This document shows, in pieces, positions 9,555 through 61,512 of a stretch of DNA of 64,000 nucleotides. Made by a program: the position numbers and the translations under genes. The DNA is taken from contig NC_044301.2 in the NCBI RefSeq assembly GCF_004027225.2, forward strand, positions 20,914,902 to 20,978,901, read 5' to 3'. Source of the DNA: Strigops habroptila. Lineage: Eukaryota > Chordata > Aves > Psittaciformes > Psittacidae. The notes beneath the pieces are model-generated. The model saw only the letters and a program-made list of their open reading frames with translations. It had not been told where the DNA came from and ran no database searches. How positions within the stretch are numbered: the first letter of the stretch is position 1; each line of letters opens with the position of its first letter.

Positions 9555-9844
9555 GCACTGCCAAAAGAAGTCAGATCCTGTCACCAGAAGAGAAGAAGGT
9601 TGTGGCATTTCACAAATCGGGTCATGCACTGGTTGGCTGGCTGCTGGAGCACACCGAGGCTGTGATGAAGGTAACTACACCACCAGCTTTTGCATAAAGA
9701 AACCTGTCACTGGGTGTGAAGAGAGTTCTTTGGGGTTCTCCTGTCTGAGATTAGCTGATTGCTTTCTAGTATTTGTGTTGAATTCTGTTACCCTGGCCTC
9801 CATGAGCTTGGAGCTGTGAATACTGCAGCAAAATAAAGGGCCAA

Positions 9845-9880
9845 TATAGAGTCATTTAGGTTGGAAAAGACCTCTACAGG
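9845..9880 (-). repeat. Tiny CR1 3'-end relic
   Basis: ATAGAGTCATTTAGGTTGGAAAAGACC resembles the reverse of the CR1 3' terminus, inside an SPG7 intron. Confidence 0.5.
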
Positions 9881-57700: not shown

Positions 57701-60700
57701 ATATAAAGGATCCGAGGACAGCTATACTCCAACCGAAAAAGAGATTTTAGCAGCCTATGAAGGGGTTTGAGCTGCTTCAGAAGTGATTGGCACTGAAGCA
57801 CAGCTCCTCCTGGCATCCTGGTTGCCTGTGCTGGGCTGGATGTTCAAGGGCAGAGTCTCCTCTACACATCATGCAATCGATGCTACATGGAGTAAGTGGG
57901 CCGCACTAATTACACAATGAGCTCGAATAGGAAATCCCAGTCATCCAGGAATTCTAGAAGTCATCATGGACTGGCCAGAGGGCAAAGATTTTGGAATGTC
58001 ACCAGAGGAGGAGGTGATGCGTGCTGAAGAGGCCCCACCATATAATCAACTGTCAGAAAGTGGGAAGCAATATGCCTTGTTTACTGATGGGTCCTGCCAT
58101 ATTGTGGGAAAGCATCGGAGATGGAAGGCAGCTGTGTGGAGTCCCCTACAATAAGTGGCAGAAAGTGCTGAAGGAGAAGGTTAATCAAGTCAGTTTGCAG
58201 GGGTGAAAACCATCCAGCTGGCCTTGGACATTGCTGAACGAGAAACATGGCCAGTACTTTATCTCTATACTGACTCATGGATGGTGTCAAATGCCCTGTG
58301 GGGGTGGTTGCAGCCATGGAAGCAGAGCAACTGGCAACGCAGAGGTAAACCCATCTGGGCTGCTTCATTGTGGCAAGATATCGCTGTCCAGGTGCAGAAC
58401 CTGGTGGTGAAGGTACGCCACGTAGATGCTCATGTACCCAAGAGTCTGGCCACTGAGGAACACCAGAACAACCAACAGGTGGATAAAGCTGCTAAGATTG
58501 AAGTGGTTCAGATGGATTTAGATTGGTAACATAAGGGTGAATTATTTTTAGCCTGGTGGGCCCATGACACCTCAGGCCATCAAGGCAGAGATGCAACATA
58601 TAGATGGGCTTGTGATCGAGGGGTGGACTTAACAGTGGACCCTATTGCCCAGGTTATTCACAAATGTGAAACATGTGCTGCAATTAAGCAAGCCAAACGA
58701 TTAAAGCCTCTCTGGTATGGAGGACGATGGCTGAAGTACAAGTATGGGGAGGCCTGGCAGACTGACTATATCACACTCCCACCGACCTGCCAAGGCAAGT
58801 GCCATGTGCTTACCATGGTGGAAACAACCACCGGATGGCTGGAAACATACGCTGTGCCCCATGCCGCTGCCCGGAACACTATCCTGGGCCTTGAGAAACA
58901 AGTCTTGTGGTGACACTGCACCCCAGAGAGAATTGAGTCAGACAATGGGACTCATTTCCGGAACAACCTTATAGACACTTGGGCCAAAGAGCATAGATTG
59001 AGTGGGTGTATCACATCCCCTACCATGCACCAGCCTCTGGGAAAATCAAACGGTACAATGGGCTGTTAAAAACTACCCTGAGAGCAATGGGTGGTGGGAC
59101 TTTCAAACACTGGGATACACATTTACCAGAAGCCACCTGGTTGGTCAACACGAGGGGATCTGCCAACAGGGCTGGCCCAGCCCAATCAGAACTTTTACTT
59201 ACTGTAGAGGGGGATAAAGTTCCTGTGGTGCACATAAAGAATTTGTTGGGGAAGACAGTCTGGGTTATTCCTGCTTCAGGTAAAGGCAAGCCCACTCGTG
59301 GGATTGCTTTTGCTCAGGGACCTGGATATACTTGGTGGGTAATGCGGGAAGATGGGTAAGTCTGATGTGTACCTCAAGGGTATTTAATTTTGGGGGAAAC
59401 CAGCCAATGAACTCAATTATATGCTGTTGCCTGCTATATAAAACTTCTCTAGCCCATCACCTAAATTCCCATCTCCATCACTCTGGGCTTTGAAAAGGAA
59501 ATATGTGCTGCCAGGATCATCAGCAGAGAATAAAGTCATGGGAAAAGGCAGCAGTAGCTGTGGGAGTCTCCCAGAACCGTCCTCAGGTCACCATCGACTG
59601 ACCCTGACTTCCCTCTGATCATCACCCCAACAAAGAATGAACTTTGATGAAACCAGATGAGCTCAGCTGTGACCAGACTAATTCAGCGGTGTTGTCAGCA
59701 GGCAATAATCCAACACTGTACACCATCTCTCCTGCCATGAAAGACTGTTACAAGAGATGAAGCCTAACATCATCAACTGAATGAATTCAGCAATCTTTAT
59801 AGGTATGGTCCATGGATTAAGGAATGATATCTGTCTCTTTTTTTGTGTGTGTGCATGTGTGTGTGCATATATATATATAAGGAGACACACAGCGATGGTA
59901 TATTGAAAAAATGTGGGACCTGAGCATGACATGAGTGGTATGGAATAAAAGGTGGATGCTGTCCTGGGTTCAGCTGTAATGGTTATTTTTCTCCTTCTTA
60001 GTAAATGGTGCAGTGCTGTGTTTTCGACTTTAGTCTAAGAACAATGCTGATAACACACTGATGTTTTAGTTGTTGCTAAGTAATGCTTACTCTGATCAAG
60101 GACTTCTGTCTCTCATGCTCTGCCAGTGAGGAGGGGCACAAGAAACCGGGAGGAAGCAGATACAGGACACCTGACCCATACTAGCCAAAGGGGTATTCCA
60201 TACCACAGCATGTCATGCCCAGTATATAAACTGGGGGGAGTTGCCTGGAAGGCCCAGATTGCTGCTCAGGTCGGGCTGGGTATCGGTCGGCAGGTGGTAA
60301 GCAATTGTGTTGTGCATCACTTGTGCTCATTGTTGGTTTTTTCCCTTCCCTTGTTAGTCTTATATTTTCTCCCCTTGTTATTTCCCTTATCGTTATTATT
60401 AGTAGTAGTTTTGTGTTATACTTTAGTTATTGGACTGTTCTTATCTGAACCCATGGGGTTTACATTCTTTCAGTTCTCCCCATCCTGCCCAGAGCTGTGG
60501 GGGGGAAGAAGGCAGGGAGTGAGCAAGTGGCTGTGTTTCTGAGTTACTGGTTAGGCTTAAACCATGACACAATCCTGGAATGGTTTGGGTTGGAAGGGAC
60601 CTTAAAGCTCATCCAGTTCCAACCCTCTGCCATAGGCAGGGACATCTTCCACTTGACCAGGTTGCTCCAAGCCCCGTCCAACCTGGCCTTGAACACTGCC

Positions 60701-61512
60701 AGGGATAGGGCAGCCACAGCACTGTGCCAGTGCCTCACTACCCTCACAGGGAAGAATCTGTGCTTTATGGACTATTTGGTTGCTTTGCATGTAACAACCA
60801 TCTCCCCCAGAGCTGGAATCAGCAATACGAAGGATACTAAAACACTCTACAATTTCCCAAATGCATTAAGAGTTAGTTCCCCCGCACTTCACAGTTCGCA
60901 TTAAATGAAGTTTAAGACAAGTGCTCTGAACTGGTACTTCTCTACCGATGAAATAAGAACAGTTACTGATGCGGAGAAAAGCACAATGAGACATTTTGTT
61001 TGACACGCTGTTAGAACATCATTGATCCATTTTGCAAATTCTTCACAGTCCAAGCTGGCATTAAGCAGGCCCTGGAAAGGGATAAATTACATGATGACTA
61101 CACATGTCTTTGCTGCTTTGAAGTATCTTACCAAGCCGTGTGTAAACTAATCAAAGATAACTGTAGGGGTCAGCATGGCCCAGCAAAAGAAACGTGTCCA
61201 ACAGCTTCTCTTTCCCCCACCAGCTTTGGTGTGTTGTATTAAAATTAACCTCTATCACTACTTCCTCCCACTACTTCTCTGCATTTTCCTGGATTACTGC
61301 TTCTCTTTTTGGAATTTATGCCAGCGATTTTCAAAACGAGTACAAATAGGACATCTCATTTCCAAGAATAGCATATAGTCGGGTATCTGGTGAAGAAACA
61401 TCTACTCTGGCTAGCAGGGACAGTGGGGCAGAATGACAAAAGCAGCAGTTACCCTGAAGAAGTGAGCAATGATGTCATAGGAGAGTGCATACCCTCTGGA
61501 ACAGACATTCTT
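51757..61512 (-). CDS. FANCA: FANCA 3' exons, probably decaying
   Basis: FANCA is a scaffold of the Fanconi anemia core complex (interstrand crosslink repair). Minus-strand exons with good borders: 61453-61512 (KNVCSRGYALSYDIIAHFFR), 61298-61386 (IPDYMLFLEMRCP), 60946-61071 (42 codons; DCEEFAKWINDVL), about 53699-53907 (PLEAMNNVGLQAVL), 53577-53639 (LPFFSFMDLISAK, like human FFFSLMGLLSS), 52758-52847 (QTFLYVVLEFYIQLLRLFVE, like human EAFLHVAVDMYLKLVQLF) and the last exon 51757-51864 (like human DPEVSAALQ to the C-terminal LF). Weaker candidates: 56352-56396, 54581-54686, 52009-52075. In the last exon a TAA at 51847 precedes the still recognisable tail, removing about 30 residues. Exons between 53.9 and 60.9 kb are poorly resolved. 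The first two are assigned by position and splice fit, not by motif. Confidence 0.72.
52895..53024 (-). other. Terminal-exon-like open frame of unknown origin
   Basis: A strong acceptor (CCTTTGCTGTCTTCACAG at about 53025-53042, minus) leads into a 42-codon frame (QPFVQSPTDWIREQIPV, GESEGRVIEEENIWDA) that ends in TGA at 52895. It does not match the FANCA C-terminus as I know it. It could be an alternative last exon of FANCA. Confidence 0.4.
56500..59959 (+). mobile_element. ERVL (class III) pol region, broken, in a FANCA intron
   Basis: Reverse transcriptase (FNSPIWPVQKSNGEWRLTVD, TTDIANAFFSIPL), RNase H (ALFTDGSC, LYLYTDSWMVSNALW) and integrase (CETCAAIKQAKR, ESDNGTHF) follow in order on the plus strand. 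No env was recognised. Several breaks; a fossil. The left end is not defined and no 5' LTR is visible. The right side runs into an LTR-A copy at 59960, which links that LTR family to this pol. Confidence 0.9.
59825..59882. repeat. (TG)n(TA)n microsatellite
   Basis: TTTGTGTGTGTGCATGTGTGTG followed by ATATATATATA. Confidence 0.85.
59960..60569 (+). mobile_element. ERVL LTR (LTR-A), probable 3' LTR
   Basis: Starts TGTCCTGGGTTCAGCTG and ends AAACCATGACA, same orientation as the adjoining pol. TATA-like CCAGTATATAAACTGGG lies near 60219. Confidence 0.88.
60572..60765 (-). mobile_element. CR1 LINE 3' fragment
   Basis: GGTTTGGGTTGGAAGGGACC and TTCCAACCCTCTGCCATAGG, then CCGTCCAACCTGGCCTTGAA: the reverse of a CR1 3' end. 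It abuts the LTR at 60569. Confidence 0.88.

Follow-up and report, generated by a model that had tools for sequence, protein, structure and literature searches.

The 64-kb stretch of kakapo (Strigops habroptila) DNA analysed here (the window, which contains no N) carries exons of eight genes in conserved order, from SPG7 and RPL13 through CPNE7, a sulfotransferase (SULT) gene, DPEP1, VPS9D1 and ZNF276 to FANCA, and it very probably is part of the kakapo W chromosome. Five of the eight genes (SPG7, CPNE7, SULT, DPEP1 and VPS9D1) are broken or truncated, and the block is best read as a Z–W gametolog left by loss of recombination. A preliminary description had taken it for a relaxed, decaying second copy rather than the standard locus, which agrees with a “-like” RPL13, the decay, the load of long terminal repeats (LTRs) and the published fusion of chromosome 11 to the ZW pair. 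We would replace its copied segment by a gametolog; of the two homes that it suggested, the W probably fits, and a germline-restricted chromosome (GRC) is set aside, the host being a parrot.

The host is identified through RPL13. Among the 120 of 1925 protein matches listed for the copy in the window is kakapo P0115, named “60S ribosomal protein L13-like” (153 aa; 99% identity over 67% of the query), which consists of exons 1–3 and a read-through into intron 3 and is identical letter for letter over 153 aa. A parrot host is what would be expected of a neo-W stratum derived from chromosome 11. P0115 lies on a sequence of 37,425,726 nt, which is not the kakapo Z, because 37.4 Mb compares with 101.23 Mb for that chromosome; for the W the printed length is 35.7 Mb, and male read depth on that chromosome as a whole is about 0x (PMC9903828). 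According to the main text of PMC8854603, in which the kakapo genome is included, the parrot ancestor, dated at 31.8 million years (My), underwent a fusion of chromosome 11 with the ZW pair, and the part derived from that chromosome is hemizygous and fully differentiated, with a Z–W similarity of about 86%. The neo-W retains 16.9% of its genes, and the content of transposable elements there has risen from 12.8 to 50.1%. Gene decay and LTR enrichment, both expected of such a stratum, are found in the window, where repeats make up at least 24.6% (a floor from 19 hand-listed intervals), against a published mean of about 9.6% for transposable elements in parrot genomes.

Genes were found by tblastn, using human proteins as queries, and by codon views, which together bear out the conserved order of the eight genes noted previously. 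To gauge chance, each of 8 query proteins was shuffled 20 times. The best shuffle fell below E 1e-3 in none of 20 for SPG7, CPNE7, DPEP1, CHMP1A, CDK10 and ZNF276 and in 1 of 20 each for VPS9D1 and FANCA, and weak matches were therefore accepted only if colinear. Proline-rich weak matches to VPS9D1 and ZNF276 off the colinear block were rejected as chance, since shuffles yield similar scores.

The 3′ part of SPG7 (1958..14318, plus strand; human aa 517–790, with a Pfam Peptidase_M41 match) is spread over six exons (approximately 1958–2052, 9555–9670, 10459–10612, 11769–11913, 12333–12411 and 14110–14318), the first of which places the start of the block earlier than the 9555..61512 originally given. 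It has an in-exon TAG at 11849 and two in-frame deletions, the exon at 12333 has lost its frame, and the zinc motif HExGH has become HKSGH at 9611. The portion of SPG7 upstream of these exons is either beyond the window or gone. CPNE7 (25953..36253, plus; human aa 22–542) has three frame breaks, near 33435, 34350 and 35860, at least one of which sits in a run of G. The SULT gene (39418..41667, minus; homology search and codon views), whose name SULT5A1 comes from the preliminary description, has two in-frame stops in exon 40702–40913 between good splice sites. DPEP1 is reduced to a stump (42838..43145, plus; human aa 36–108 only) with an in-frame TGA at 43062, and VPS9D1 to another (43268..44230, minus; human aa 1–125 only), in exon 4 of which a frame break is possible, with a short unseen intron as the alternative. 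The stumps lie 122 bp apart (junction 43146..43267), with an 18-bp minisatellite between them at 43205–43249. The remainder of both genes was not found in the window, where VPS9D1 beyond aa 125, VPS9 domain included, gave no colinear match. Neither CHMP1A (no match in the window at E 0.5) nor CDK10 (one lone match at E 0.2, far from the expected place and within the range of shuffles) was found there. Given the human gene order, a single deletion is the simplest explanation of the junction.

In all, the SPG7, CPNE7, SULT and DPEP1 exons carry ten changes over 3,454 nt, and those of RPL13 and ZNF276 at most one over 2,493 nt (P ~0.006), a weak comparison in that exon lengths are approximate and the genes were grouped with the outcome already known. 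The ten include the SPG7 active-site change; without it, the same formula applied by hand gives P ~0.01. Six of the eight genes had previously been listed as carrying lesions, and this is confirmed for all but FANCA, in which no clear stop or frameshift is seen.

Self-comparison revealed at least three LTR families in the window; among 14 LTR segments examined, five have their own target duplication, which measures 5 bp in three cases and 4 bp, possibly by chance, in two. For instance, a solo-like LTR lies in RPL13 intron 2 (18786..19350, plus; 5-bp duplication AAGGT) and another in a CPNE7 intron (34444..35061, plus; TCACC). An LTR element (28715..31745, plus) has inserted within a coding exon of CPNE7, flanked by a 6-bp target duplication, CACGCC. 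Its LTR pair differs by a Kimura two-parameter distance of 0.051 over 325 sites, or roughly 13–17 My at an assumed rate of 1.5–2e-9 per site per year, younger than the 31.8 My of the parrot ancestor, and four of the six internal frames, those searched, held no Pfam domain. Two further LTRs of one family (25328–25907 and 27406–27996) flank the first recognisable CPNE7 exon, with a 4-bp duplication at the first only. The former stops 45 bp short of the earliest CPNE7 codon that can be recognised, and exon and non-exon placement cannot be told apart, so that of the three insertions into coding exons described earlier one stands, and no third appears among the 14 segments.

The RPL13 gene (16968..22660, plus) is open over its 211 aa and five exons (16968–17071, 18414–18555, 20505–20678, 21736–21792 and 22502–22660), and its four introns, all GT/AG, rule out a processed retrocopy. 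Intron 1 contains a C/D-box small nucleolar RNA (snoRNA), snoMBII-202 (17309..17389, plus; Rfam RF00324, 59.1 bits, gathering 40). A second, weak match lies in intron 2 (20370–20445; 26.1 bits, below gathering), and the two are perhaps a tandem intronic pair of which one has decayed. In a tree of 14 rows, which has no canonical parrot RPL13, the kakapo copy groups with the “-like” copies of Lathamus discolor (P0005) and Neopsephotus bourkii (P0004), with support of 100/97 and with 99% of 200 bootstrap trees recovering the group. The tree unites these copies and shows their rapid evolution, but does not directly date their split from a Z partner. All three have V41, T47, K65, C103, C139, T159 and V184, and the 5′ flank recurs in the Lathamus model (65% over 113 aa when translated).

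The window copy has 17 residues that are absent from four canonical birds, 10 of them present in one or more of the other parrot copies and seven its own, and 11 changes at sites invariant in nine vertebrates. It differs from Furnarius RPL13 at 19 of 211 positions, the same number as human, compared to 33/210 for the Neopsephotus and 28/211 for the Lathamus “-like” copy, 9/211 for chicken and 5/182 for Columba; the canonical proteins of Furnarius and Nipponia differ at 3/192. Lack of stops would have a neutral P of 0.50 for 17 missense changes and of 0.086 for roughly 60 such changes summed across three lineages, so that the stop-free frame is little evidence of selection. The copy is thus in place and open, evolves far faster than canonical RPL13, is relaxed, and is perhaps in use. 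Since the kakapo database model runs into intron 3, it is not certain that the full frame is expressed. The Lathamus model contains residues equal to those read from the last part of the window's intron 3 (~21706–21738), its exon 4 acceptor being placed upstream. The kakapo and Lathamus models hint at either altered splicing or poor models of this copy.

ZNF276 (44384..51154, plus) has ten exons, each open. A lesion that we had placed between exons 2 and 3 is withdrawn. Exon 2 has two candidate donors (in the region 46010–46642): with GTACGT at 46033, the better-looking consensus, exon 3 is out of frame and meets a stop, whereas with GTCACA at 46011 exons 1–3 are open throughout. In 500-bp windows the observed/expected CpG ratio exceeds 0.6 at three places only, the value for the whole window being 0.26. 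These are an island at the common 5′ end of VPS9D1 and ZNF276 (43700..45200; up to 1.03), a stretch at the RPL13 5′ end (16300..17200; 0.67–0.78) and the 3′ end of the LTR element at 31.1–31.8 kb (0.61–0.73; GC 0.49 in the first window). Both GC-rich stretches belong to the two open-frame genes, RPL13 and ZNF276. That CpG-rich promoters mark the surviving genes is suggestive only, as the SPG7 and FANCA promoters are out of view and other genes may never have had islands.

Together with the published history, a sequence of events can be proposed. After the fusion of chromosome 11 to the ZW pair in the parrot ancestor, the copies on the Z and W sides would have stopped recombining. The Z-side copy would have stayed intact, and the W-side copy would have decayed through point mutations, indels, LTR insertions and the deletion that brought DPEP1 and VPS9D1 together, in line with the degeneration printed for this side. 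RPL13, and probably ZNF276, would have kept their frames and CpG-rich promoters, as expected if dosage-sensitive housekeeping genes last longest on the W.

Several points weigh against this placement on the W. It presupposes that the SPG7–FANCA genes lie on chicken chromosome 11 and that the kakapo Z has an intact copy. The “-like” RPL13 clade alone does not separate W from Z copies, as the tree has no canonical parrot sequence. The FANCA 3′ exons (52248..61539, minus; human aa 1108–1424; tblastn, PDB search and codon views) number six and show no clear stop or frameshift, though part of aa 1256–1336 was not found convincingly; a PDB match came from one of the three minus-strand frames of 47–62 kb, and none from the other two. 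The sequence for the N-terminal three quarters of FANCA is either beyond the window or gone. Finally, 37.4 Mb is close to, but does not equal, the 35.7 Mb printed earlier for the W, and an autosome of about 37.4 Mb is an alternative.

On such a chromosome the block would be an autosomal segmental duplicate, inserted and decaying there. Its gene order, introns and decay would fit any relaxed second copy, and the sequence bearing P0115 is known only as being about 37 Mb long. However, a separate event would be needed where parrots already carry a degenerate second copy of chromosome 11 on the W, the “-like” RPL13 clade of three parrots fits a single ancestral event, and the LTR load is W-like, so that we consider a duplicate unlikely. 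Less likely still is that this is the standard locus and that its lesions stem from assembly errors or from real loss of genes in the kakapo. The canonical kakapo RPL13 was not among the sequences compared, and the CPNE7 frame break in a run of G is where long-read errors occur, but the stops, the active-site change, the LTR insertion with its target duplication and the DPEP1–VPS9D1 junction are not types of error. Moreover, canonical RPL13 hardly varies from bird to bird and the window copy does, the copy is named “-like”, and in parrots chromosome 11 has become part of the 101-Mb Z by fusion. We give almost no credence to a GRC as in songbirds, since although such chromosomes carry relaxed copies of autosomal genes, they are not known outside passerines, the host is a parrot, and our literature search found no paper joining a GRC with SPG7.

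Some further elements were seen. A long copy of CR1, in which both endonuclease and reverse transcriptase are matched, lies between two SPG7 exons (2231–4815) and may be a candidate for the parrot CR1-psi. Downstream of CPNE7 is a diverged CATGTG-type minisatellite (37004–37832; units of 7–48 bp). Retrovirus-like pol matches (reverse transcriptase, RNase H and integrase) occupy 56820–59022 on the plus strand, antisense to FANCA and between two of its exons.

The kakapo block very probably belongs to the degenerate neo-W of parrots. It resembles the chromosome-11-derived stratum S4 of that neo-W (main text of PMC8854603) in its parrot host, decay, LTR accumulation and housekeeping survivors, and would share with it chromosome-11 genes in order and a parrot-ancestor origin; the gene-level detail here is from kakapo, whereas the expression work there is on monk parakeet, and that main text, supplements apart, has no mention of SPG7 or RPL13. 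It likewise resembles the avian W as a refugium of endogenous retroviruses (ERVs), an LTR-rich, female-limited chromosome for which the kakapo W is among those counted, two methods giving it 458 or 871 full-length ERVs (the column order being read from table sums; PMC8310711). The count there is chromosome-wide, whereas here single insertions are placed, one of them in a coding exon.

The block gives a base-level view of genes dying on a bird W: which of them break, how, and which two keep both frame and promoter, the survivors being the sort of gene that should persist if survival depends on dosage. In mammals the ribosomal protein gene RPS4Y is kept as a diverged copy on a sex-limited chromosome, and the kakapo RPL13, known here from sequence alone, would be similar. 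Our analysis leaves some room, though not much, for the view that parrots keep a female-only, W-borne eL13, an intact and fast-evolving gametolog with a CpG-rich promoter and an intronic snoRNA, and thereby a second kind of ribosome in females. With counterparts in two other parrots, such a female-only ribosome component is directly testable, and, if true, a female-specific eL13 ribosome would parallel RPS4Y in human males.
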